Positions 3,053 to 38,507 of a stretch of 44,862 bases of DNA are shown piece by piece. Under the pieces are notes generated by a model. The model saw nothing but the letters and a program-made list of their open reading frames with translations, was not told the origin of the DNA and made no database searches. The position numbers and the translations under genes are program-made. The DNA is from Thermoflexaceae bacterium (GTDB lineage Bacteria; Bacillota; Clostridia; Lachnospirales; Lachnospiraceae). Location: contig JAQXXN010000045.1 in assembly GCA_029226085.1 (NCBI GenBank), positions 1 through 44,862 of the forward strand, given 5' to 3'. Numbering within the stretch: the stretch's first letter is position 1; each line of letters opens with the position of its first letter.

Positions 3053-6000
3053 TTAGCCCGTTATTTTTTTCCAGATAACAAGTATAATTGCAAGCAGAAT
3101 ACCTGCAACCGCCACAATCGGAATAATCGGTGACATGCCGCGTGATTCCGGTTCCACGGTATTATCTGCTGCCACAATATCTGCACTGATTGCAACCGGC
3201 TGGATAGATGCCGCATTCTTACCGGTATCAATTCTTGCTCCCGTATTAGCCGGTGCAGAGGAATTCAGTACCAGCACACCATGCATGTTGATTGTACCAT
3301 CCGCATTTCTTGTCGGTTCCACCGCTATATCCGTACTTTCAAACCAGTCCGTCGTCGCCGCCACACCTTCATTATTGGTGGACTCCAGTCCGTCATACAG
3401 ATAATTCGTTGAACTTCTTAAGGAATAGATGACACCGTTTCCTGCGCCAAGCTCCGGATTGGTGGTTGCATTATCCACAACCGACAGCATTCCTGTAAGA
3501 ATCCAAGCCTTCGGATTGGAATTTTTCGTATACAGACTGACATTGTATGCTTTTCCGTTTAATGAATTATTATATGCCGTACAGCTGATGATTTCACAGT
3601 TCGGTCCGGAATTGCTTGTGATTCCCTTTCCGAAGTTATTATATGATACACAGTTAATCAGCTGATGGGCACCGAACATATTCTCACCGCCCAGCTTGAA
3701 TCCGTTACCTTCTCCAAACAGCATGGTTTCATCTTCCAGATTGTCTTCTCTTAAGAAACCGTTACTATACGATACACAGTTTTCAATCACTACTTCACCA
3801 ATCGGGCCCGTAGTGGACTTGGCATACAAATCCCATCCGTCATCAATGTTATGATGTGCTATACATCCATAAAACTTATTACCGGTACCACAGGTTAATT
3901 TTGCAGCAAATCCATCCGCATCCGTTCTTCCCTTATCACAACAGTCATGGGCATCACAGTTTTTTATCAGATTGTTTTCCGGCCACATGCCGTCATCATT
4001 CGGTTCCGCCGAATACCTGCTGATCTGAAGTCCGGCACTGCTCATGTTGTGGATGTTGCACATTTCAACAATATTGTCATTACCACATACACTGATTCCT
4101 TTTCCCGAACCATATGCAAGCTCCAGACCATACACATGCCAGCTGCTTCCCACGATTGAAAGCATGGATACGGAATTTTCCAGTCCCGAACCGTCAAGAA
4201 GCACCCCTCCGGTACTTTGTGCCATAAGGATAATAGGCTGTTCTTTCGTGCCGTTCACACTTCTTCCAATGAGCAGATCCTGTGTCAGTTTATACTTACC
4301 GTTTAACAGCACAATCGTCTGACCCGGCTGGGCATAATTTAAAATCGTCTGTAAATCCAGCGGATTTTGAAGAGAACCGTCTCCATCCGTCTTTCCGTCC
4401 GGTGTTACATATAATATGTCACCAGGTTTTCCTATCTGCCGTACAAGAACTTTATGCTCACCGCTAATGGTTTCATATGACTTAAGATTCTCTACATTAT
4501 TATCCGGAGTAAATTCATAAGTAAAGGTTTCTTCTGCTCCCACAGTCAGCACGGCATCCGCCCGGATAATCTTATCCGCATCAAGCTCTCCGTTATAGAT
4601 TTCATTGCCCGCAGAATCCCTTACCTTTAAAAAACCTGCCACATTGGCAGAAACAATCAATTCATATTCCGTACTTCCAGTGGTATTTCCTGAATATATG
4701 GAAAAATCCGGCTCCACTAAAATTTCGTTGTCGCCTCCGGCAATACCTTCGGTTTTCTGAAATGTAATATTGCTAATTTCCACACCTACTTTACGTGCCG
4801 ATGCAACACCCACACAAATGGAGCCATCCTCCTGTACCATGATACTCTCAGTTCCGTTAAAGGTAATGGTCTCATTTGCACCATCCATGGATGCAATATA
4901 TCCTTCATCCGTCTTTTCCAGCGTATATGTAAAAGTATCCCCTACCTTAACGGAATCATTTTCATTTACCACGGAAAAAGAATTCTTATTATCATGATTC
5001 CGGATTGCTCCCTGATTATTATATGCATCATAAGAAGTATATCCGGTAATCAGCCTTGCACCGTGTCCGTGATATCCGTTATTATACATTTTAAACTGAC
5101 CCACAGACACGGAATTAAAATACTTCGCGTCCTTGGAACCCACACCTGCAATATCTGTTGCATAAATACCGTAACCGGTCTGGTTATCCGGTCCGTCATT
5201 AACATTGGTTACCATATAGGTTGCCGTAAGGACAAAGTTCTCCGTATTCGGGTCAACCTTGGTAAAATAATAAAAGATTCCGTCTTCACTGTCTGCAATC
5301 TTACCGTTTGTCTGTGACGCTATTTCGATTGTTCCGTCTGTTCCCGTCACATCCTCAACAGGAATGATACCAGAATCCGTCTTTACGGCATATTCCTTTC
5401 CGTTTACGGTAATCGTTCCGGAGGTTGCCGAACCCATTGCCGCAATATACCACTGCTGCTTTGGCTCACCTACGGTAATAATACCGGTAGACTCCTTTTT
5501 CTCGTCTTCCTTATATGCCGTAACCTTAATTTCATATGGCTTTCCTTCCGTTAATCCGGTAAGGGTATAATCTCCCTCTGTAAGATTGGATGCCGCAACC
5601 GTATACTTTTCCGTTCCCGATTCCCTATATGCAACTTCAAATCCATCGGCATCCACATTATTCCAGTCCACATAAACCGAGCCGTCACCCAGATTATTCA
5701 GCCACGTAATTTCAGGATTTGCCAGCGGAAGCTTATAATTTTTTATTTTAACTTCTTCGCTTTCTTTATCCGGACAGCCTTTTCTGTACGCTTCTGCCTT
5801 AACTACATAGTCTCCCTTAAGGCTTGGTGCAAAATTATACACTCCCGATTCCGTAATCTGTACACACATGTTCTCGTAACCGTTCTGGAAGAGGAATAAT
5901 CTTGCACTGTCTGCCCCGTCTGTTCCAATTGCCATTGAAACATCCACATCAATCGTACCTTCATCATTAACAGTCACACTGTTAATCACCGGAGCCTCAA

Positions 6001-6631
6001 CTTCATCCCAGTCTTTTCTGGTAATACTCTGAACGGTGTTCCCCGTGTATTCTACCTTTATGTAATAGATATTAATACCCTGGGAAGCCTTAAAACAATA
6101 TGTTCCTGCCTGCGGTATGTTATAAACAACCGGCGTAATTTTCCCATCGTCCCCTGCTGATGTGGGAGCAAAATATGTTCCGCCTTCCACCATTTCACCC
6201 GTAGCCGTATCATACAGGGAAAGGGATCTGTCCGCTTCTTCCTTGTTGCTGCTTATCATGTAAACAGCTGCCGTACCTGCGCCTCCGGTAGTAAAGGAAA
6301 CTGTTCTTTCCGTTTCTCCAGACTTTCCGTTGTATTTCAGCCTCTTCGTAAACGACATGGTACCGTCTTCATTACTTTTGGCATTGGCATCTACCGTCAG
6401 CTTCTTATCGGACGATGCTCCCAATGTAAAATCACCAAATACCAGATCCTGGGTAATATCCCCCTCCGGCAGCTCACTGGCATTAAATGTTATTACCGTA
6501 GTTTCGCTGCCGTTTTCATTCTCTGCCTGTACAGACAATTTCCCGTTCATAAACTCTGTCGGTAATAGACTGATTGTCAATAACACTGTCAGAAGTCCCG
6601 ACATAAATCTCTTATTTCTTCTCAATCTCAT
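3053..6631 (-). CDS. Secreted, membrane-anchored pectate-lyase-like protein (PL9-type right-handed beta-helix, FN3-like domain, C-terminal TM anchor)
   Basis: Signal peptide MRLRRNKRFMSGLLTVLLTISLLPTEFMNG; FN3-like region PEITWLNNLGDGSVYVDWNNVDADGFEVAYRE; PL9-like DADGFAAKLTCGTGNKFYGCIAHHNIDDGWDLYAKS and GEGNGFKLGG; C-terminal IIPIVAVAGILLAIILVIWKKITG. SD GGAGG precedes the Met at 6631. Confidence 0.82.
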   Translation of the reverse strand: MRLRRNKRFMSGLLTVLLTISLLPTEFMNGKLSVQAENENGSETTVITFNASELPEGDITQDLVFGDFTLGASSDKKLTVDANAKSNEDGTMSFTKRLKYNGKSGETERTVSFTTGGAGTAAVYMISSNKEEADRSLSLYDTATGEMVEGGTYFAPTSAGDDGKITPVVYNIPQAGTYCFKASQGINIYYIKVEYTGNTVQSITRKDWDEVEAPVINSVTVNDEGTIDVDVSMAIGTDGADSARLFLFQNGYENMCVQITESGVYNFAPSLKGDYVVKAEAYRKGCPDKESEEVKIKNYKLPLANPEITWLNNLGDGSVYVDWNNVDADGFEVAYRESGTEKYTVAASNLTEGDYTLTGLTEGKPYEIKVTAYKEDEKKESTGIITVGEPKQQWYIAAMGSATSGTITVNGKEYAVKTDSGIIPVEDVTGTDGTIEIASQTNGKIADSEDGIFYYFTKVDPNTENFVLTATYMVTNVNDGPDNQTGYGIYATDIAGVGSKDAKYFNSVSVGQFKMYNNGYHGHGARLITGYTSYDAYNNQGAIRNHDNKNSFSVVNENDSVKVGDTFTYTLEKTDEGYIASMDGANETITFNGTESIMVQEDGSICVGVASARKVGVEISNITFQKTEGIAGGDNEILVEPDFSIYSGNTTGSTEYELIVSANVAGFLKVRDSAGNEIYNGELDADKIIRADAVLTVGAEETFTYEFTPDNNVENLKSYETISGEHKVLVRQIGKPGDILYVTPDGKTDGDGSLQNPLDLQTILNYAQPGQTIVLLNGKYKLTQDLLIGRSVNGTKEQPIILMAQSTGGVLLDGSGLENSVSMLSIVGSSWHVYGLELAYGSGKGISVCGNDNIVEMCNIHNMSSAGLQISRYSAEPNDDGMWPENNLIKNCDAHDCCDKGRTDADGFAAKLTCGTGNKFYGCIAHHNIDDGWDLYAKSTTGPIGEVVIENCVSYSNGFLREDNLEDETMLFGEGNGFKLGGENMFGAHQLINCVSYNNFGKGITSNSGPNCEIISCTAYNNSLNGKAYNVSLYTKNSNPKAWILTGMLSVVDNATTNPELGAGNGVIYSLRSSTNYLYDGLESTNNEGVAATTDWFESTDIAVEPTRNADGTINMHGVLVLNSSAPANTGARIDTGKNAASIQPVAISADIVAADNTVEPESRGMSPIIPIVAVAGILLAIILVIWKKITG

Positions 6632-6674
6632 GCAATCCTCCATATATTTCCAATTCAAACATTATTTGGTCTTA

Positions 6675-16364: not shown

Positions 16365-17963
16365 CTATTTATGTCTGACAAAATAAAATATTGCGCCTTT
16401 ATTAAACATATATTCAAATTCATGTTCACAGCACTCTGTCTCTCTTAGTTTGTCCAGAATAATTTCCTGCTCCCAGTCTTCCGTATAAAAGTCCGTATTT
16501 ATTAAAATCACGAAATCTTCACCATCAGCAGGACATTTTGTTTTGTCAAAGTCGACCCATTCATTATATGCAATAAATCTGCTGCCTAACGCTAAATCAT
16601 AATAATTCTGCATCAAGGACCAATCCTCATACCCATAATATATCCAAGGATATTCGCTATACTCTTTTAATATTTCACGCTTCCGATCAAAATCTCCGCT
16701 CCGGTCAATATATCCAATTGACATCTCATTATACTGCGCTGTATACACATTAAACATTAATAAAATTGCAAGCACGGCATAGGACATATAATTCTTATTT
16801 TTTATACGAATATATCCTGCTGCTTTTACCAGTATTAACACTATCGCAACATAACCAACTGCCGATGCCATATAAAAGTACCGGTCGTCTATGATATAAT
16901 CCGGAGTTACATGGGTTATTATTATACCTGCAAACACAGAAGCAGACAGCAGCATGGACATGAACGGCAAATCCTTATCTTTTTTGTATATAAGAAATGC
17001 CAAAGAAACCACAACCAGTATTATACCGATAATGTAATAATCATAGAACATCAGTCTTGACAAACGAACAATACCGGCCAGAATATTATTAAATATCTGT
17101 GTAAGCTGAAAAGCCTTTTCAATTATTGCATCCCCTCGGTATCCTGAAAAAACCTGTGTAATCCAGCGCGGCCAAATAATTGTTGCCGCAACAACTGCCG
17201 ATGCCATTGACGTACCGAATAAAATAATATCCTTCCATTTACGCTTAGTTATGCAGTAAATTGCATATGCTGCCGTAAAACCTACTGCCAGCGTTGAAAA
17301 ATAGTACTGAGTAAGGAATCCACATGTTGTCACACATGCAATCAGAATATGCAAAGCGTACTTTGCTTTTTTATTAATATCCTGTATCAGAATGTATGCC
17401 AGAAGAATATAAAGCATTGCCCATGCTGTCATCATACAATACATCCGGATGAGCATCTGATTGGTAATCATGGATGGCAAAATACATACTGCAATAGTAA
17501 TCATGGACGAAATCACTTTTTTTCGTGTAATCATAAACAGCAGCGCATAGAGCAAAATACAAATTCCAATCAGACAAATCAGATTAACCGATAACCCGAC
17601 CCATTTTGATATACTCGGCCGCATAATTAAAGACATCACATGCAAAGTCAGATAATATATAGGAGGATGTACATTGGTATAAGCGTTGTGTATTGTGCGC
17701 TTAAAAAACTTACCACACTCCGGTGTCATGTCATCGATAACAAATTGAGAATCATACCATTTTCCATACTCAATTCTGGGGCCGACGGAATATGCCGAAT
17801 TTGCCGTAAAATAGGAATATATTTCATCACAGAACCATACTACCTTATATTGACTCCAGTAAAGAAATACTCCTAATACTATTGCAAGCGTTATAAATAC
17901 TGCCAATCCGTTTTTCAAAATCTCACTTTTATTTTTTATCCAAAATTCTTTTATTTTTGTCAT
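16365..17963 (-). CDS. GT39/ArnT-like GT-C membrane glycosyltransferase, paralog C
   Basis: Multi-TM; first-loop WFCDEIYSYFTANS with acidic D-E motif, NVHPPIYYLTLHVMS, FLTQYYFS; C-terminal FYFVRHK. Confidence 0.8.
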   Translation of the reverse strand: MTKIKEFWIKNKSEILKNGLAVFITLAIVLGVFLYWSQYKVVWFCDEIYSYFTANSAYSVGPRIEYGKWYDSQFVIDDMTPECGKFFKRTIHNAYTNVHPPIYYLTLHVMSLIMRPSISKWVGLSVNLICLIGICILLYALLFMITRKKVISSMITIAVCILPSMITNQMLIRMYCMMTAWAMLYILLAYILIQDINKKAKYALHILIACVTTCGFLTQYYFSTLAVGFTAAYAIYCITKRKWKDIILFGTSMASAVVAATIIWPRWITQVFSGYRGDAIIEKAFQLTQIFNNILAGIVRLSRLMFYDYYIIGIILVVVSLAFLIYKKDKDLPFMSMLLSASVFAGIIITHVTPDYIIDDRYFYMASAVGYVAIVLILVKAAGYIRIKNKNYMSYAVLAILLMFNVYTAQYNEMSIGYIDRSGDFDRKREILKEYSEYPWIYYGYEDWSLMQNYYDLALGSRFIAYNEWVDFDKTKCPADGEDFVILINTDFYTEDWEQEIILDKLRETECCEHEFEYMFNKGAIFYFVRHK

Positions 17964-17993
17964 ATCTTCCCTCTTTGATTTTATTGAAGCTTA

Positions 17994-19586
17994 CTACTTA
18001 TGTCTGACCAGATAAATCTTTGCACCTTTGGTAAACAAATAATCAACTTCGTGGTTACATCCTTCTGCATAAAGCAGCCTTTCCAGTATTGCCTCCTGTT
18101 TAGGATAGCTTTCCGTATTAATCATAAAAATAAAATCCTGACCTTCTCCCAAACATTTTGACTCATCAAATTCATTCTGGTCATTATAAACGATAAATCG
18201 GGTTCCCATGGCAAAATCATAATAGTTCTGCATCATCGGCCAGCTCTCGTATCCGTAATACACCCACGGAAGATTTCCATACTCTCTTAACGTTTCCCGA
18301 TTTTGGATAAATTCCCCGGTCTTGTCCACATATCCCATGGACATGTCATCAAATGCTGCCGTAAGAATATTAAATCCTATAACAGCGCACAAAGCAGCAT
18401 TTAATATTTTATGTGCATTTCCTACCGGAAGATATCCGGCACAACTGATTACCATAAGCAGAACTGCTACATAAGCAATTGCAGCCGGCATATAAAAATA
18501 TCTGTAATCCAAATAATATGTTGGTGTAACATGCGTAATAATTAAACTGTAAAAAACTGAGGTTATAAGAAGCATTCCTATAAAAGTAATATTTTTATCC
18601 TTCTTATAGACAAGGAATATAACTCCTGCCACAATCAGAATAATACCTATAATATAAAAATTATAAAACATTAATTTCGGTATACAGGTAAGTCCAAATA
18701 AAATCTCAGTAAAAATCTTAGAAAAATTTGACGCCTGTGAAAAAACTTCTTCCCCACAATATCCTTCAAAAATCTGTTCTGTCCACTCTCCCCATACCAT
18801 AGTTGCAATTGCAACAGACATGACCATGGAGGTAATATATAAACACATCTCTTTCCATCGTTTCTTTATAATGCAGAAAATCGTATGAACAGCGGTAAAT
18901 CCGACAGCAAATACAGCAAAATAATATTGTGTCAGGAAACCTGCCGCTGTCGTCCCTGCAAGTGCCAGATAAAGAAAATATTTAAACCATTTATTAATGT
19001 CCTGCATTACCAGATAACTTAGAAAAACATATAACATTCCCCAAGCTGTAAGCATACAGTACATTCGAATCAGCATTCCATTCGTTAATACGGACGGCAA
19101 TGTTGAAAGAGCCACACAGGCTAAAAGGGCTGTCAATTTTTTACGGCTGATCCAGTAAAAGATTAAATATGCCATAAGACACAGACCCAGCACACAAATC
19201 AAATTAACAGACAAACCTACCCATTTGGAAATACTTCCCTTCATCAATATTGACATCAGACGAATTGTAAGAAAATAAATTGGCGGATGATCATCACCCT
19301 TTACATTATCAATTGTTCTGTTAAACTTTCCCTTGGTTATATCTGCAGACATGTCATCAATTACAAATTGTGAATCATACCATGTCCCATACTGAATTCT
19401 GGAACCCAGACCATACTCTGAATTCGCTGTAAAGAAAGAATAAATCTCATCACAAAACCAGATTATCTTATACCTGCTCCAAAACAAAAATACTCCGGCT
19501 ACAATCACTGCTGCAAGCAGCATGACTAAGATATTCTGAAGAACTTCCTTTCTGTATTTTATATAAAAATCTTTAATTTTTGTCAT
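17994..19586 (-). CDS. GT39/ArnT-like GT-C membrane glycosyltransferase, paralog B
   Basis: WFCDEIYSFFTANSEYGLGSRIQYGTWYDSQFVIDDMS, DDHPPIYFLTIRLMS, FLTQYYFAVFAVGFTA; C-terminal IYLVRHK. Confidence 0.8.
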   Translation of the reverse strand: MTKIKDFYIKYRKEVLQNILVMLLAAVIVAGVFLFWSRYKIIWFCDEIYSFFTANSEYGLGSRIQYGTWYDSQFVIDDMSADITKGKFNRTIDNVKGDDHPPIYFLTIRLMSILMKGSISKWVGLSVNLICVLGLCLMAYLIFYWISRKKLTALLACVALSTLPSVLTNGMLIRMYCMLTAWGMLYVFLSYLVMQDINKWFKYFLYLALAGTTAAGFLTQYYFAVFAVGFTAVHTIFCIIKKRWKEMCLYITSMVMSVAIATMVWGEWTEQIFEGYCGEEVFSQASNFSKIFTEILFGLTCIPKLMFYNFYIIGIILIVAGVIFLVYKKDKNITFIGMLLITSVFYSLIITHVTPTYYLDYRYFYMPAAIAYVAVLLMVISCAGYLPVGNAHKILNAALCAVIGFNILTAAFDDMSMGYVDKTGEFIQNRETLREYGNLPWVYYGYESWPMMQNYYDFAMGTRFIVYNDQNEFDESKCLGEGQDFIFMINTESYPKQEAILERLLYAEGCNHEVDYLFTKGAKIYLVRHK

Positions 19587-19611
19587 ACTCTTCTCCCAAA
19601 GTTTTTATATC

Positions 19612-21210
19612 CTATTTATGCCTGATTAAATAAAATGCTGCACTCTTATTAAATAAATATTCAAATTCATGATTACAGCCAACTGTCTGCTTTAATTTTT
19701 CCAATATTTCCTCTGGTTCATGATAACTATTACTATTAATCATGATAATGAAATCCTGACCACCCACAGGACATTTTTGACTATCAAAATCATTCATGTC
19801 ATTATACACAATAAATTTGCTTCCGAGTGCCATGTCATAGTAATTTTCCATCATTGACCAGCATTCATACCCATAAAACATCCATGGCAGTTCATCATAT
19901 TGTTTTAGTACTTCTCTTTTTTCAAAGTATTCCCTTGTTTTATCAACATATCCCATTGCCATTCCATTATACCAGGCTGTCCATATATGGAAAATCATTA
20001 GCAGAACAATAGTCCCGCTAATGGCACCATTCTGCAATTTTGATACAGGAATGTACTCCATGCAGCTGACTAAAATGAGCAGTATTGCAATATAAGCCAT
20101 TGTCGTTGGCAAATAAAAATATCTTGCATCCATATAATACGATGGGGTAACGTGTGCAACCACCATGCAGTAAAATAGTGATGTACCCAGCAGAATCGTA
20201 ATAATCGGAAGTCTGTCATTCTTTTTTATTATGAGAAAAATTATACCTCCGAGAATTAATAATATTCCTACAACATAATAGTCATAAAAAATTAATTTTG
20301 GCATACAGGTAAACGCATATAGAAGTTCTTTTAATAGTGAAGAAAAATTAAATGCGGAACTTAATACATCCTGTCCACAATACCCCAGAAACATTTGTCT
20401 GAACCAGCTTTTCCAAAGTATCGTTGCAAAGACTACTGCAGAAAACATGGAGATCAGATAATATTTAATATCATTCCAGCGCTTTTTCATTATAAAGTAT
20501 ACACATGATATTGCTGTAAATCCGACTGCAAATACTGCAAAATAGTACTGTGTCAGAAATCCCAGTGTTGTTGTCAGAGATAGTCCTGTATATAATGCTC
20601 TTTTTTTCTTTATAATGTCATTATCACTCAGAATCATGTAACAAAGCAATGTATATAAAACACCCCATAAAGTAAGCATACAATACATTCGAATCAACAT
20701 TGCATTTGTTAAAAAAGATGGAACAATACAGACTGCAACCGATACCAAAAATGCCCATCTCTTCTTTCCCGTTATCCGATAAAATAAAATGTATGTCATA
20801 ATACAAATTGCAATGACACAAAACAAATTAATTGAAAGACCAACCCATTTCGATATACTTCCATCCATTATTATGGACATCAGTCGAATAGCAAGGAAAT
20901 ATACTGGTGGATGCTCATCATTTTTTACATTAACTATCGTCCTGTTAAACAGTCCGTCCGAAGTATCTGCCGTCAGGTCATCCACTACAAATCGTGAATC
21001 ATACCATGTACCATATTGTATTCTTCCTCCGAGACCATATTCTGAGTTAGCAGTAAAAAAAGTATAGATTTCATCACAAAACCACATTACCTTATAGTGG
21101 CTCCAGAATGTAAAAACCCCGGTTACAATTAACACTGCGCAAAAAACTGCCAGTATATGAATCCCTATTCCGTTATCGTTTTTTCTAGACAAATCCCTTA
21201 TTCCTCCCAT
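19612..21210 (-). CDS. GT39/ArnT-like GT-C membrane glycosyltransferase, paralog A
   Basis: WFCDEIYTFFTANSEYGLGGRIQYGTWYDSRFVVDDLT, DEHPPVYFLAIRLMS, FLTQYYFAVFAVGFTA; C-terminal FYLIRHK. Confidence 0.8.
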   Translation of the reverse strand: MGGIRDLSRKNDNGIGIHILAVFCAVLIVTGVFTFWSHYKVMWFCDEIYTFFTANSEYGLGGRIQYGTWYDSRFVVDDLTADTSDGLFNRTIVNVKNDEHPPVYFLAIRLMSIIMDGSISKWVGLSINLFCVIAICIMTYILFYRITGKKRWAFLVSVAVCIVPSFLTNAMLIRMYCMLTLWGVLYTLLCYMILSDNDIIKKKRALYTGLSLTTTLGFLTQYYFAVFAVGFTAISCVYFIMKKRWNDIKYYLISMFSAVVFATILWKSWFRQMFLGYCGQDVLSSAFNFSSLLKELLYAFTCMPKLIFYDYYVVGILLILGGIIFLIIKKNDRLPIITILLGTSLFYCMVVAHVTPSYYMDARYFYLPTTMAYIAILLILVSCMEYIPVSKLQNGAISGTIVLLMIFHIWTAWYNGMAMGYVDKTREYFEKREVLKQYDELPWMFYGYECWSMMENYYDMALGSKFIVYNDMNDFDSQKCPVGGQDFIIMINSNSYHEPEEILEKLKQTVGCNHEFEYLFNKSAAFYLIRHK

Positions 21211-31223: not shown

Positions 31224-31697
31224 TCACACCCTAAATCCCCGGTTACTCTCCAATCCAAAGCTCTCATTCAGCGTTCCCTTAGAATAGGTAAGTCCTGCAT
31301 ACACCTGCTGTGTATTTTCCATTACAGGACCTCTTTTATCCTCATGCTTAATCTGTTCAAATGAATTTTTTAACTTTTCCAGCATTCCTACGCAGCGTAA
31401 CAGCTCCGTTGTATCTTTTGAAACCGATGCCCGTATCATTGCCCGGTTCATGTATACATATATCTGCATGAAATTAAGTGAGATTTCATACCGTAAATCC
31501 AGTGAATGCATCAGTTCATTAATTACCCTGCCTGCATGCTTAAGGTTTGTTCGAAAATCTTCCTCTTTTCCTGCATCGCAGCTTACAATGGCGCTGTTCA
31601 GATAGCTTTCTGCCATCTCATATAAGATTACAATTAATTCTGTTGGCGTTGCCTGCATGATTCGGTAAGAAAAACCATTTTTTTCTTCTCTGGTCAT
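31224..31697 (-). CDS. fliS: Flagellar export chaperone FliS-like protein
   Basis: YRIMQATPTELIVILYEMAESYLNSAI...NLKHAGRVINELMHSLDLRYEISLNFMQIYVYMNRAMIRA; adjacent to flagellin. Confidence 0.85.
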   Translation of the reverse strand: MTREEKNGFSYRIMQATPTELIVILYEMAESYLNSAIVSCDAGKEEDFRTNLKHAGRVINELMHSLDLRYEISLNFMQIYVYMNRAMIRASVSKDTTELLRCVGMLEKLKNSFEQIKHEDKRGPVMENTQQVYAGLTYSKGTLNESFGLESNRGFRV

Positions 31698-31717: not shown

Positions 31718-33205
31718 TTAACTCTGTAATAACTGTAATGCCGTTTCCGGTCTTGCATTTGCCTGTGACAGCATGGAGGTTCCTGCCTGTGCAAGAACAT
31801 TTGCCTGGGTATATTCTGTCATTTCTTCTGCCATATCCACATCCATGATTCGTGAAAGTGCTGCCGTAAGATTTTCTTCCGAAACGCCCAGATTAGAGGT
31901 TGTATGCTCCAGACGGTTCTGGTACGCACCGATTTTAGAACGTGCCGTGGATAATTTCGTAATGGCTGCATCCACGGAATCAATTGCCCTACTTGCATTT
32001 TCATAAGTATATACGTTCATGTTATTAAGGCCTAATGTTTCCACGGATATTTCCTCCAGATTAATGTCAATAATCTGGTTTTCATTGGCACCCACATGTA
32101 CCTTCATTGTTCCCATGTCCGTTACTTCCTGTTCCATCTGGACAGTTCCGCCATTCTTTGCCACAACATTTTCCGGTACCTTTACCACAAATGTCTTGTC
32201 ATTATTATCACGTACCGTAATGGTATTACCATAGGTTGACATTGTTGCAGAATTGGCAAAACCCACTCTTTCTCCAGACTGTGTTGTAAAATCCGCCTGA
32301 ACATTTTTTCCTGTCTGAACCTCTGATTGCGGAAGTCCCAGCTTTGCTGCCAAAGCTACATTGTCGCATTCCACTTTCATCGTTTCATTCGAACCGGATT
32401 CTGCTGAAATGAATACGAATGCCGTTCCGCTCCTTACAGCTACAGATTCATATCCTTCCGTATCTCCATATTTGGCTTTATCCGTCGTTGCAGAAGGGCT
32501 TACATTAATTATTGTACCGCCTGCCATATTTGTGCCTTCCGCAAGCTTTGTTGCGATGGTTCCCAAAGTATCTCCTACATCAATGGATATATTCAGTCCA
32601 TTAATGGTAATGGTTCCTTCCAACTCTTTGGTAATTGTTTCCGTATCTGACATTCCGATAGAATTTCCTTTTACAACGGCCTTTTGTGCATCGGATGTAA
32701 TTGTGATTCCATAAATTCCATCCGAAAATCCATCCGTAACTTCCATCTGCTTTACATCCGAAACATTGGAATATACCCTTCTTTGCAAATCCCCATTTAA
32801 CAGGGACTTGGTATTAAAATCCGTGTCATTGGCAATACGGTCTATTTCTGCATTCAGGGAATCTATTTCTTCCTGAATTGCTGCACGCTCATCCACGGAA
32901 TTTACATCATTTGCTGCCTGAACGGACAACTCCTTCATTCTTGTAAGCATGGCCTGGATTTCCGTCATGGCGCCTTCTGCGGTCTGTAATACAGAAATAC
33001 CATCCTGTGCATTATTATCTGCCTGGTCAAGGCCCCGGATCTGTGATTTCATTTTCTGTGATATTGCAAGTCCTGCCGGGTTATCCTTCGAATGATTAAT
33101 TTTATATCCTGAGGATAATCTCTCCAGAGAAAGTGATAATTTATCTTCTGTCTTTGACAGCTGTGCGTTTGCTATAATTGCTGACATATTGGTGTTAATT
33201 CTCAT
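31718..33205 (-). CDS. Flagellin
   Basis: N-terminus MRINTNMSAIIANAQLSKTEDKLSLSLERLSSGYKINHSKDNPAGLAIS; C-terminus MDVDMAEEMTEYTQANVLAQAGTSMLSQANARPETALQLLQ. Confidence 0.97.
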   Translation of the reverse strand: MRINTNMSAIIANAQLSKTEDKLSLSLERLSSGYKINHSKDNPAGLAISQKMKSQIRGLDQADNNAQDGISVLQTAEGAMTEIQAMLTRMKELSVQAANDVNSVDERAAIQEEIDSLNAEIDRIANDTDFNTKSLLNGDLQRRVYSNVSDVKQMEVTDGFSDGIYGITITSDAQKAVVKGNSIGMSDTETITKELEGTITINGLNISIDVGDTLGTIATKLAEGTNMAGGTIINVSPSATTDKAKYGDTEGYESVAVRSGTAFVFISAESGSNETMKVECDNVALAAKLGLPQSEVQTGKNVQADFTTQSGERVGFANSATMSTYGNTITVRDNNDKTFVVKVPENVVAKNGGTVQMEQEVTDMGTMKVHVGANENQIIDINLEEISVETLGLNNMNVYTYENASRAIDSVDAAITKLSTARSKIGAYQNRLEHTTSNLGVSEENLTAALSRIMDVDMAEEMTEYTQANVLAQAGTSMLSQANARPETALQLLQS

Positions 33206-33292: not shown

Positions 33293-33320
33293 ATATCGGC
33301 CGTATTTCTTTTTTTAATTA
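33293..33320 (-). promoter_or_regulatory. Sigma-D (sigma-28) promoter of flagellin
   Basis: Minus strand TAAT (33320-33317) - 16 nt - GCCGATAT (33300-33293). Confidence 0.7.
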
Positions 33321-36314
33321 GTCTGTTTTAGCACAAAGATTTGTAAGAATCTCCTTTGCCGCTTTGTATATCAACGCCGAAGGTGCGCCTTTTCCTTCAT
33401 CCAAAAGATTAACAGCGGGTATGCTGTCACTATGTCCCACACCAATTTTGGCATCTGTTATCCCCAGTTTCTCCAATCCGGAACGGATATTATCCACAGT
33501 CTGGCTTATTTTTTCCACTGCTTCTTTCTTATCCGATACAATATAACCGTTTGCTTCCTCATTTCCGACATAAAATTCCGCATATACACTGCCCAGTTCG
33601 CCGGAAGCAAATTTCATCTCCATTTTTCCGGCATTTTCTTCTGTCCGGATAACTTTCAGATGAATACTTCCCATTCCATCCTCCGTTTCAAACGGAATAA
33701 AATACTGCTGTTTTCTGCTTAAATTACTCATCAGATTAACGGTTCTTCCCAGATTTCTTAAAGTCTTTATATCCAGATAATCGTCCGTATTGCTGCTTTC
33801 CATTACCTGTGTACCCACATTCCGGATACTCTCTTGCAGTTTTTCACAAGCTTCCTCCATGGTATCTTTATCTTCCATGGAATCCAGAATCCCGGATACT
33901 GCATCATCCAGCTTCTCATCCTTTAAGCCACGCAGCTCTTTAAAAAGCTTACCGCCGCCCATCAGCTCACCTGCTGACATGATATTATAAAATGTGACCG
34001 GAATACCGTTATCTGTCAGCAGTCTCATGACATTTTCTTCCACGTTCTGATAAGTACCAGCTTCTTCCACCATATCCGAATAGTATTCTTCCCTGGTCTC
34101 TTTATCAAGTTCCCTATATTCTTCAAAAAGTTCCGCCATTTTTTCAGGACTTATTTCATTGATTGTTCCTTTTTCCTCCGATGCCTTTTTAAGTGCTGCC
34201 GGTGTGATGCTCTTTGACAATGTCGAAAATAAATTCTGATAGAATGGCACATTCACCGCTTCCTCTGCCATTCCGGCATCTGTATCAAGCGTTACGTCCA
34301 TACCATATTTTTTTCTGCTGTCCACTGCCATCATGAGGTTTCCCATGCTGATTCTGGCATCCTGGTTTATCAGTGCGCCAACTGCTTTGCCGCCATCTTT
34401 CTTTAACAGATGAAACATCTTGTAAATACCGATAAACTGCTTTCTTTCCTCTTCTGAAATGCCTTCCGTCTTTTCAAGCTTATATAAGAATTCGCTGTAT
34501 TTTACAGTTTCATCCTGTATATTATAATGTTCATTAATATACTGGTTTAATGTTTCAATGTCCGTATCCATCGGATTGATTCCATCCTGAATCATCTGAT
34601 AAGTAACCTGTGGTGTCATGTTATCCATCAGATTATTTAACATACTGTCCGTTTCTCTTACCCGGTTTATGTTTTCCTGTGTCATTTCCATTCCGTTATA
34701 CGCAAGAATGCGTACTGCACGAAGATTGATTTCATTTACCTCTATGCCAAGATTATTTAATATACTGCTTCCACTGTTTGACATCGCCGCTTTCACGGAA
34801 TCTCCCATGTCGCTTCGCACTTTTGTGGACATTGTCTCATATGACTGCCCCGCCTGCTCGTACTGTCTCTGCATGGAGAAAGATACGGAATATACACCGG
34901 TAATGGTTCTTTGGCTTTCCCCGGCTGTGATTTTTCCGATTGCCGCACACGGCATAAATTTTAACCCAAGCAGTGCTTCATTTACATTGGAAACCTGTAT
35001 AAGATCCGCTTCCGAAACATTGTCGGCATCTTTTCTTGTAAGCTGTGCAGTTATATATTTTGTTTCTTCTTCATGCAGTAAGTCAACCAGCTTTGATAAA
35101 TCCTCCGAGTAAATATCAATTCCCTTATTGATTATGGAAACCGTAGAAGATGCCGTCATTAATACGCGCGCCTCGCAGAGTACCCGGTATGATGTCTGGA
35201 TACTTGCCCGGTCTTCTTCGACCTTCTCCCTCGGTATTTCTTTATGTCTTCCTTTTTCCAGTTCATCCGCCAGTTCATTGATGGTTAACTTTCTATTTTC
35301 CGATACAATACCGGAAACATTTTCATAGGAAGCATTATTGACAATCCATATTGCCCGTGCCGCTTTTTTCCATTCCTTATCCTGCTCTGTAAGGGATGTC
35401 TGTGCTGCACGCTGTCCTCCCGTCATGGAATCTACCGCCATATCCATGACTTCTTTCTCATCATATCCATATTCCAGATGATCCAGCCAGTCTTTGTAAA
35501 TAAGATTTTCCCCGGTTACGGGAAGCTCATTGGTAATCAGCCACCGTGCATCCTCGTATGCCTTCCTCGTATCCTTTATTCCAGCCTCTTCAATGATTTT
35601 TCCTGCCTGCGGTTTTATCTGCTCCCACTGGTCATTCGTAAGTCCTGCCTGATAACCATTATTTATGGTGCTGTGATTTGCCATGTATATATTTCCAATA
35701 CTCGGCTTCATTTCATTCCCGATAAGAAATGCCTTTGCCTCATCCGAAAGCGGCATTCTTCCCGCAATGTCGTCTGCCATTTCCATGGTGCTTATGACAT
35801 CCGTGACATTATCCTTTGTTGCCGGCATATATCCCTCACCAAGCCTTACTGCAACCTTTGCTGCCAGATTTCCTCCCTGTGATTCCTCCAGCTCCTCACT
35901 ATCCGGCATGTCAAATGCTCCTGCAAATGCCTGATAATTCTCGTTATATGCAGCAAGCATGATTTTAATCCGGTCAACGACTGTCACAAGTTCTTCATCA
36001 TCAATATCATTGATGTCGAATCCATCCTCATCGAGTTTTGCTGCCTCTGCTCCGGATAATTTATTAAATAACGCCTTCAGATTTGCTTTTGCCGCCTGGG
36101 CATCTGACTTTAACTGTTCTTCAATGGAACTGATTCCTTCCGAGATTCCGTTCATGGTTTTTTTCACATCCGTGGAATTCATCGGCTGGCTGATTTTATT
36201 TATTACCTTTTCAAATGCATTTACGGTTTCCTTAGCAGCTGCCCCGGTAGGAAGCTTTGCCTGACCGTTTACCTGACTCTGATTATATATATTATTAACG
36301 GAAGCTATATTCAC
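33318..36314 (-). CDS. Large (about 1000 aa) flagellum-associated protein of unknown function with a FliK-like C-terminal region
   Basis: GTG start at 36314 with SD AGGAGGGA; sigma-D-like promoter upstream; C-terminus GSIHLKVIRTEENAGKMEMKFASGELGSVYAEFYVGNEEANGYIVSDKKEAVEKISQTVDNIRSGLEKLGITDAKIGV resembles the FliK hook-length-control C-domain pattern. Confidence 0.65.
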   Translation of the reverse strand: MNIASVNNIYNQSQVNGQAKLPTGAAAKETVNAFEKVINKISQPMNSTDVKKTMNGISEGISSIEEQLKSDAQAAKANLKALFNKLSGAEAAKLDEDGFDINDIDDEELVTVVDRIKIMLAAYNENYQAFAGAFDMPDSEELEESQGGNLAAKVAVRLGEGYMPATKDNVTDVISTMEMADDIAGRMPLSDEAKAFLIGNEMKPSIGNIYMANHSTINNGYQAGLTNDQWEQIKPQAGKIIEEAGIKDTRKAYEDARWLITNELPVTGENLIYKDWLDHLEYGYDEKEVMDMAVDSMTGGQRAAQTSLTEQDKEWKKAARAIWIVNNASYENVSGIVSENRKLTINELADELEKGRHKEIPREKVEEDRASIQTSYRVLCEARVLMTASSTVSIINKGIDIYSEDLSKLVDLLHEEETKYITAQLTRKDADNVSEADLIQVSNVNEALLGLKFMPCAAIGKITAGESQRTITGVYSVSFSMQRQYEQAGQSYETMSTKVRSDMGDSVKAAMSNSGSSILNNLGIEVNEINLRAVRILAYNGMEMTQENINRVRETDSMLNNLMDNMTPQVTYQMIQDGINPMDTDIETLNQYINEHYNIQDETVKYSEFLYKLEKTEGISEEERKQFIGIYKMFHLLKKDGGKAVGALINQDARISMGNLMMAVDSRKKYGMDVTLDTDAGMAEEAVNVPFYQNLFSTLSKSITPAALKKASEEKGTINEISPEKMAELFEEYRELDKETREEYYSDMVEEAGTYQNVEENVMRLLTDNGIPVTFYNIMSAGELMGGGKLFKELRGLKDEKLDDAVSGILDSMEDKDTMEEACEKLQESIRNVGTQVMESSNTDDYLDIKTLRNLGRTVNLMSNLSRKQQYFIPFETEDGMGSIHLKVIRTEENAGKMEMKFASGELGSVYAEFYVGNEEANGYIVSDKKEAVEKISQTVDNIRSGLEKLGITDAKIGVGHSDSIPAVNLLDEGKGAPSALIYKAAKEILTNLCAKTD

Positions 36315-36332
36315 CCCAGACTCCCTCCTTAC

Positions 36333-36378
36333 AAAAAAATACTTGTATGGGTAATCTTTCAACCTATACAAGTATTTT
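36333..36378 (-). terminator. Terminator-like hairpin between glgB and the 1022-aa gene
   Basis: Minus strand AAATACTTGTATAGG...CCCATACAAGTATTTTTTT, T tract followed directly by SD GTAAGGAGGG. Confidence 0.7.
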
Positions 36379-36402
36379 CGGCACATTTATTTATTTACAT
36401 TA
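36375..36402 (-). promoter_or_regulatory. Sigma-D-like promoter of the 1022-aa gene, overlapping the glgB 3' end
   Basis: Minus strand TAAT (36402-36399) - 16 nt - GCCGAAAA (36382-36375), same -35 variant and spacing as the flagellin promoter. Confidence 0.5.
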
Positions 36403-38321
36403 TGTTTTTTCTTTCTATTTTTCTTTTTAGTATGCCTGTGGGTAAATTCATATACCTTAATTCCATAGGAATCCAGATTTACCAGAATGGAATCTTCAAA
36501 TCCGCTGCACTCTGCCTTTTTGCTTGTAAGTTCCTCCCCGGCGCCTCCTTTTTCGTCCAGAACCAGCTTATACCGGCCTGCATCCGGTACTCCAATCTTA
36601 TAAGTATTTCTTATAACCGGTGTAAAATTCAGAACAAACAACAACGACCTTCTGCCATCTTCCGAGAATCTCATAAAGGAAAACACACTGTTTTCGGAGT
36701 CATTGGCATTACTCCACATGAATCCTTCCGGCTTGTAATCCGTTGTATATAATGCCGGATACTGCCTGTATAAGGAAAACAGCTTACGAACAAACTTCTG
36801 AAGTCCTGCATGCTCCGGCTCTGCTGCCACATGCCAGTCCAGTGCCTTTGCCTCACTCCATTCACTTGGCTGTCCAAATTCCTGTCCCATGAACAATAAT
36901 TTCTTTCCCGGATGACCAATCATATATGTATATGCCAGCTTTAAGTTCTTGAATTTGTCCGGATACTCGCCCGGCATCTTATTCAGCATGGAGCATTTCA
37001 GATGAACTACCTCATCATGGGAAAGTACCAGAATAAACCGTTCACTGTATGCATACATCAGGCTGAATGTCATTTTGTTGTGGTTCCATTTACGAAACAG
37101 CGGATCACACTTCATGTATTCCAGGAAATCATGCATCCAGCCCATGTTCCACTTAAATGTAAAACCAAGGCTGTCATTTTCTCCCACGACACCGCTGACT
37201 GCCGGCCATGCCGTAGATTCCTCTGCAATGGTCACTGCCCTTGGAAAACGTTCATTCATAACCTTGTTCAGATGGCGTAAGAAATCCATTGCCTCCAGAT
37301 TACCGTTACCGCCATACTTATTGGCTACCCACTGCCCGTTCTGCCTTCCGTAATCCAGATACAGCATGGATGCCACTGCATCAACACGCAGACCGTCTAT
37401 GTGATATTTATCCACCCAGAACAACGCATTGGCAATGAGGAAATTCGATACCTCAGTCTTACCGTAATCAAACACCTTCGTACCCCAGTCCGGATGCTCC
37501 CCTTTTCTTGGGTCTGCATATTCATAGACACAGCTTCCGTCAAAATTAGCAAGACCGTGTGCATCACGTGGAAAATGTGCCGGCACCCAGTCCAGGATGA
37601 CACCAATTCCCTGCTTATGCATATAGTCCACAAAATACATAAAATCCTTCGGCGAACCATACCTCGCTGTCGGTGCATAGTATCCGGTTACCTGATATCC
37701 CCAGGAAGCGTCAAACGGATACTCAGAAATACCCATCAGCTCTACATGGGTATATCCCATGTCTTTTACATACTTTGCCAGTTCCGGTGCAATTTCCCGG
37801 TAATTATAGAATCCGTCTTCTGTACCATCATTCTTTTTCTTCCAGGAACCAAGCTGGCATTCATAGATACACATCGGCTCTTTTAAATGGTCTGCTGCCG
37901 TTTCTTTCTGAATCCACTGTCTGTCACCCCATTCATATCCGTCAAGACACACTGTCTTTGATGCATTTCCCGGTCTTAACTCCGATGCATTGGCATATGG
38001 ATCTGCCTTGTACAGTTTCCTCCCATCCTGGGAAATAATTAAATACTTATAAAGCTGTCCTTCTTTTACATCCGGAATAAAAATATCATATATTCCACCG
38101 TCTGAAATCTTATTCATCCGGTACTGCGATTCATTCCAGTTATTAAATTCGCCTATGACATAGACCTCTCTTGCCCTTGGTGCCCACACAGAAAAATAAA
38201 CACCTTCTCTTCCGTCCACGGTGGTAAGATGTGCACCCATTTTATTATAGATTTCATAATGCGTACCCTGTCCGAATAAATACGCATCCAGCTCTGTTAT
38301 AAATACACGATTTTCTGCCAT
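36387..38321 (-). CDS. glgB: 1,4-alpha-glucan branching enzyme
   Basis: YFSVWAPRAREVYVIGEFNNW; GVILDWVPAHFPRDAHGL; HIDGLRVDAVASMLYLDYGR; LVLSHDEVVH; LFMGQEFGQPSEW. Confidence 0.95.
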   Translation of the reverse strand: MAENRVFITELDAYLFGQGTHYEIYNKMGAHLTTVDGREGVYFSVWAPRAREVYVIGEFNNWNESQYRMNKISDGGIYDIFIPDVKEGQLYKYLIISQDGRKLYKADPYANASELRPGNASKTVCLDGYEWGDRQWIQKETAADHLKEPMCIYECQLGSWKKKNDGTEDGFYNYREIAPELAKYVKDMGYTHVELMGISEYPFDASWGYQVTGYYAPTARYGSPKDFMYFVDYMHKQGIGVILDWVPAHFPRDAHGLANFDGSCVYEYADPRKGEHPDWGTKVFDYGKTEVSNFLIANALFWVDKYHIDGLRVDAVASMLYLDYGRQNGQWVANKYGGNGNLEAMDFLRHLNKVMNERFPRAVTIAEESTAWPAVSGVVGENDSLGFTFKWNMGWMHDFLEYMKCDPLFRKWNHNKMTFSLMYAYSERFILVLSHDEVVHLKCSMLNKMPGEYPDKFKNLKLAYTYMIGHPGKKLLFMGQEFGQPSEWSEAKALDWHVAAEPEHAGLQKFVRKLFSLYRQYPALYTTDYKPEGFMWSNANDSENSVFSFMRFSEDGRRSLLFVLNFTPVIRNTYKIGVPDAGRYKLVLDEKGGAGEELTSKKAECSGFEDSILVNLDSYGIKVYEFTHRHTKKKNRKKKHNVNK

Positions 38322-38507
38322 ATAAAACCCCGTTTCCACATGTCCATAAATCTCAAGGACATATTATGAATTATGTAATAATTTTAACATAAATGCCCCC
38401 ATTTTGTCACTAATTTCAGACTAATTTACAATCCAAAATATATTTGACTTTTGTACCCGTTAAAATTACAATGAAACTATATTTATTTACAATTGCGGGA
38501 GTACATT

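Follow-up and report, generated by a model that had tools for sequence, protein, structure and literature searches.

What role is played by a 998-aa protein whose gene lies between the glycogen branching enzyme gene glgB and the genes of a flagellin and the chaperone FliS, in the 44,862-nucleotide stretch of DNA analysed here (the window)? The coding region, on the minus strand at 33318..36314, opens with a GTG, and this open reading frame and its coordinates, given earlier in a preliminary description of the DNA, proved correct. A longer alternative frame starts with an ATG at 36386. The GTG at 36312-36314 is the better start, because the Shine-Dalgarno sequence AGGAGGG (36323..36329, minus strand, read from the sequence) precedes it and because the frame from the ATG would cross a terminator hairpin. 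The upstream neighbour is glgB (36387..38339, minus strand), whose presumed terminator overlaps the promoter of our gene, which we name DUF6240 after its Pfam domain. On the other side lie a flagellin of 495 aa with an MRIN N-terminus (31718..33205, minus strand), a member of the DUF6240-linked flagellin clade treated below, and FliS of 157 aa (31224..31697, minus strand), the chaperone gene of a DUF6240-flagellin-FliS module. The gene neighbourhood bears out the earlier statement that the gene sits with flagellin and fliS, outside any hook/basal-body cluster.

The body of the protein was at first taken as long, helical and unrecognised. The last of these no longer applies: residues 381-661 (34332..35174, minus strand) match the Pfam family DUF6240 (PF19753) with an E value of 3e-95, and the score of 318-319 bits against a gathering cut-off of 26.6 makes the protein a member of the family. 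A second, weaker and partial match falls within the helical repeat region (35361..35867, minus strand). PF19753 is matched by 33 of 33 full-length DUF6240 proteins (one per genome, the 998-aa protein included). To our knowledge, DUF6240 is a Pfam family without an assigned function, and our literature search found no paper that names it. An NCBIfam search of the 998-aa protein gave no family, and a single-sequence PDB search with it gave nothing meaningful. AlphaFold models of two input sequences, the C-terminal 170 aa and the DUF6240 domain, had low confidence (pLDDT 44 and 50), which made Foldseek searches uninformative. A helical motif of the PxTxxN type occurs 77 times in DUF6240 proteins against 7.8 expected from shuffles, and it is common to the DUF6240 and YlqG families. 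A phylum-wide DUF6240 family was considered and rejected, since outside the gut-associated order from which the window comes only sub-cut-off matches were found; the frames behind some of these, of about 530-690 aa, fit YlqG-type proteins.

The distribution of the gene follows that of flagellin. In 33 of 36 loci DUF6240 has a flagellin gene as its neighbour on the same strand, separated by no more than one gene, and the usual arrangement is DUF6240-flagellin-fliS. The remaining three loci comprise two at the end of a contig and one real exception (G053). Among 246 genomes of the order, cross-tabulated by hand and not independent of one another, 146 have DUF6240 and flagellin, 3 DUF6240 only, 22 flagellin only and 75 neither (Fisher p 6e-39). 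Sixteen of the 22 flagellin-only genomes belong to one family (f17) and two represent weak flagellin matches. In a set of 61 relatives, the gene was present in 39/42 flagellates and in 0/19 non-flagellates. Most genomes of the order carry several flagellins, and every flagellin neighbouring DUF6240 that we placed on a tree fell into a single clade (support 100/99) that held none of the 42 other flagellins included. L152 and L185 (G004:C127 and G038:C91) had been relabelled from other to partner flagellins ahead of tree building, because a DUF6240 gene lies beside each on the same contig. Furthermore, the clade stayed intact when 26 flagellins of DUF6240-negative flagellates were added, and none of these entered it, in a quick tree that covered part of the flagellins of those genomes. 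By their MRIN or MKIN N-termini the partners correspond to clade (a), described for flagellins of Eubacterium and Roseburia (Neville et al. 2013, PMC3720852), with which they also share a similar size and a promoter of the sigma-28 type; the assignment is by features and not by a joint tree. In contrast to the DUF6240 loci, the account of clade (a) in the available part of that paper mentions no upstream partner gene. Giant flagellins were also seen in relatives, with frames of 1273-1638 aa that carry a flagellin N-terminal domain (G017:C23:31955, G020:C9:17862, G027:C63:14874).

The sigma-D-type promoter reported upstream of the gene, TAAT-N16-GCCGAAAA, is present at 36402-36375: its -35 element TAAT (36399..36402, minus strand) lies inside the last codons of glgB and its sigma-D-like -10 element GCCGAAAA at 36375..36382 (minus strand). 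The promoter ascribed to the partner flagellin, TAAT-N16-GCCGATAT, was likewise found at 33320-33293 (33293..33320, minus strand). The stop codon of DUF6240 forms part of the flagellin -35 TAAT (33317-33320). The spacing had been called unusual, but N16 is normal for the group, as the Butyrivibrio sigma-28 consensus is TAAA-N16-17-MCGATAa (PMC3720852). The bare motif was rejected as evidence by itself, with 21 matches in the genome versus 15 for the reversed pattern. When upstream regions were scored for TAAA-N15-17-CCGATA-type sites and a best score of at least 9 was taken as sigma-D-like, such a site preceded 22 of 35 DUF6240 genes versus 13 of 306 controls (Mann-Whitney p 3e-14; Fisher p 5.5e-17), as well as 19/34 flagellin genes and 2/31 fliS genes. 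This conservation supports the late, sigma-D-dependent regulation put forward in the preliminary description. The -10 element contains GAAA in 13 of the 22 DUF6240 sites versus 0 of the 19 flagellin sites (p 3e-5), a variant that may lower the expression level of the DUF6240 gene.

A passenger gene that merely sits beside flagellin and has no flagellar role would agree with the silence of the literature searched. The co-occurrence, the synteny over many families, the conserved promoter and the FliK-like domain described below make this reading scarcely credible; DUF6240 is almost certainly a flagellar gene.

The DNA between its -10 element and its start codon contains a perfect inverted repeat of 13 bp followed by a T-run (36336..36378, minus strand; -17 kcal/mol, z -5.6), a terminator-like hairpin that looks like the terminator of glgB. 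The 5' arm begins within the -10 element and overlaps the expected start site, so a transcript starting at least 6 nt past the -10 would be without most of that arm, and its predicted fold reaches only -3.1 kcal/mol. We infer from this arrangement that read-through from glgB would be stopped at the hairpin while the sigma-D transcript escapes. The promoter-in-terminator layout (36336-36382) is kept in four relatives (L062, L064, L065 and L066).

FliK controls hook length and acts as the export switch; it is secreted, binds FlhB_C, and its mutants make polyhooks. A FliK-like C-terminus had been noticed in the DUF6240 protein from the sequence alone, and profile searches agree. Residues 871-963 (33426..33704, minus strand) hold a YxIP hairpin and a FliK_C-like domain, and within them residues 892-963 match Flg_hook (PF02120) with 23.8 bits, under the Pfam cut-off of 29.8. 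About ten DUF6240 relatives exceed this cut-off in a profile search of genomes, and 20 of 33 members, the 998-aa protein included, match PF02120 at E<=0.01. In profile-profile comparison with hhalign, the 33 DUF6240 C-termini matched 14 canonical FliK domains with 96.9% probability and an E value of 1.8e-10; the lack of similarity to FliK named in advance as the outcome that would speak against the idea did not arise. Searched against PDB sequences, the C-terminal profile found 2RRL (Salmonella FliK_C) with E 3.6e-4, and one designed protein scored similarly. With FliK the protein shares a homologous C-terminal domain, along with a polar N-terminus and a low cysteine content.

The L-x-P-E-x-L-G signature of the FliK_C core is, however, not kept in the 33 DUF6240 proteins examined. 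The proline before LG is present in 29/29 canonical FliK proteins versus 0/33 DUF6240 proteins; the glycine is invariant (33/33). The specificity switch of Salmonella comes about through binding of the FliK_C core to FlhB_C, and the hydrophobic residues Val302 and Ile304 lie close to FlhB_C (PMC6972891). Provided that LGxVxI aligns, as the transfer of numbering assumes, the position equivalent to Val302 keeps V or I in the 33 sequences and that of Ile304 is Ala in 13/33 and Gly in 5/33. With the signature proline lost and the Ile304 equivalent often Ala or Gly, binding of FlhB by the DUF6240 protein is not assured. FlhB-switch activity might by analogy carry over from Salmonella FliK, an expectation weakened by the changed signature.

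The homologous domain could also mean that the protein is a divergent FliK controlling hook length, either as a duplicate or as a replacement. This is very unlikely. A canonical fliK, for which the preliminary description had suggested looking, is present elsewhere in the genome (C31, beside flgD) and coexists with DUF6240, and other Flg_hook proteins occur in most DUF6240-positive relatives. Unlike FliK, the DUF6240 protein has lost the P-E-LG motif and is encoded outside the hook cluster, under a late promoter and linked to flagellin. It also has no FliK-type N-terminal ruler with a flexible linker, its body being the helical DUF6240 repeat region.

As judged from profile comparison, the nearest relative of the DUF6240 protein is YlqG and not FliK. 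The DUF6240 profile matched that of YlqG with E 1e-16 over 423 columns in hhalign, compared with 0.05-0.5 for unrelated control profiles. The match spans the C-terminal half, that is the helical repeats, the YxIP hairpin and the FliK_C-like domain, and the hairpin lies outside the region matched by FliK. Both groups have in common the MxITxEN helical repeat region as well as the hairpin and the FliK_C-like domain. In contrast to YlqG, the DUF6240 protein is about twice as long, with an expanded DUF6240 region, does not keep the HxDxxxLG signature and has a late promoter, and its gene is located with flagellin and fliS and not with an FlhX gene. The same genome encodes, in C245 (L059:5616-7558), a YlqG-type FliK relative of 542 aa next to a stand-alone FlhB C-terminal domain of 95 aa (Bac_export_2). 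They make up a second uncharacterised FliK-like/FlhB-like pair in this genome, which we take to be of the YlqG and YlqH/FlhX type. No gene for such a stand-alone domain lies beside DUF6240 within the window. FlhX as an exclusive partner of DUF6240 was considered and rejected, since the stand-alone FlhB C-terminal domain is also found in DUF6240-negative flagellates. The DUF6240 protein is very probably a member of the FliK/YlqG superfamily, and its link to FliK, to YlqG and to one flagellin lineage is newly worked out here.

DUF6240 proteins contain 0.21 cysteines per 100 aa versus 1.11 in the other proteins of the same loci; the values are 1.05 for GlgB, 0.91 for FliS, 0.16 for YlqG and 0.04 for FliK. 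As in FliK and flagellin, N, Q, S and T abound among the first 30 residues of DUF6240 proteins, and membrane-type hydrophobic segments are absent from nearly all members. Such a composition fits export through the flagellar apparatus and does not prove it. If the protein were instead a cytosolic escort or brake, it would never be secreted, would hold the partner flagellin together with FliS, and would use its FliK-like domain only for docking at the export gate. The strict partnership with one flagellin lineage, the long all-helical repeat body and the four cysteines that remain in the 998-aa protein agree with this. We regard it as rather unlikely, given a cysteine content far below that of the cytosolic controls and of FliS, and an N-terminus as polar as that of FliK. 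The export-like composition, together with the late promoter, the linkage to flagellin and the loss of FliK signature residues, would also suit a structural component of the flagellum that is secreted and made along with the partner flagellin (at a junction, cap-like or on the filament surface), in which the FliK-like fold was inherited without the switch function. However, Pfam and PDB sequence searches revealed no likeness to known axial or cap proteins, the FliK_C-like fold retains the invariant glycine and the overall pattern, and the weaker -10 variant gives no hint of high expression; a structural part is therefore improbable.

The promoter, the co-occurrence, the flagellin clade, the matches to FliK and YlqG, the lost proline and the canonical fliK elsewhere lead us to a third, filament-stage protein of the FliK superfamily and not to FliK itself. 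Its most likely role is late control, at FlhB, of the export of the partner flagellin, to which this product of a sigma-D gene would be dedicated, a proposal to which we give roughly even chances. The polar, cysteine-poor N-terminus would enter the type III export gate of the flagellum or dock there, the helical MxITxEN-repeat body would hold or measure the partner flagellin, and the C-terminal domain would contact the cytoplasmic domain of FlhB, or FlhX as the stand-alone copy of that domain. This contact might adjust the choice, the timing or the amount of exported flagellin. The protein would act after the hook-to-filament switch, the switch itself being made by the canonical FliK. Against the model of export control stands the central DUF6240 domain, which is unlike a FliK ruler. 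The preliminary description had already considered a filament-stage regulator, and an export regulator fits better than a hook-length FliK because a canonical fliK exists elsewhere; DUF6240, the YlqG branch and the tie to one flagellin had escaped it.

More tentatively, substrate specificity might be controlled further after the FliK switch, with the DUF6240 protein and the partner flagellin setting a flagellin-type decision, such as where, when or in what amount this flagellin enters the filament. In the gut, the flagellin of Eubacterium, Roseburia and their relatives serves as an immune signal, and these species carry several flagellins, which raises the question of how order and dosage are controlled. 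A protein of the FliK superfamily that accompanies exactly one flagellin lineage throughout an order offers a concrete, deletable candidate for the selection of flagellin in the filament, and DUF6240 gains a testable function.

Two further observations concern other parts of the window. At 16365-21210 lie three paralogues in tandem, each about 530 aa long and 52-56% identical between neighbours, which appear by eye to be multi-pass membrane proteins; they have no Pfam match, and the one searched against NCBIfam had none there either. In addition, a 1201-aa protein encoded at 3053-6658 contains an fn3 domain and has a match, far below the cut-off, to the pectate disaccharide-lyase PelX.
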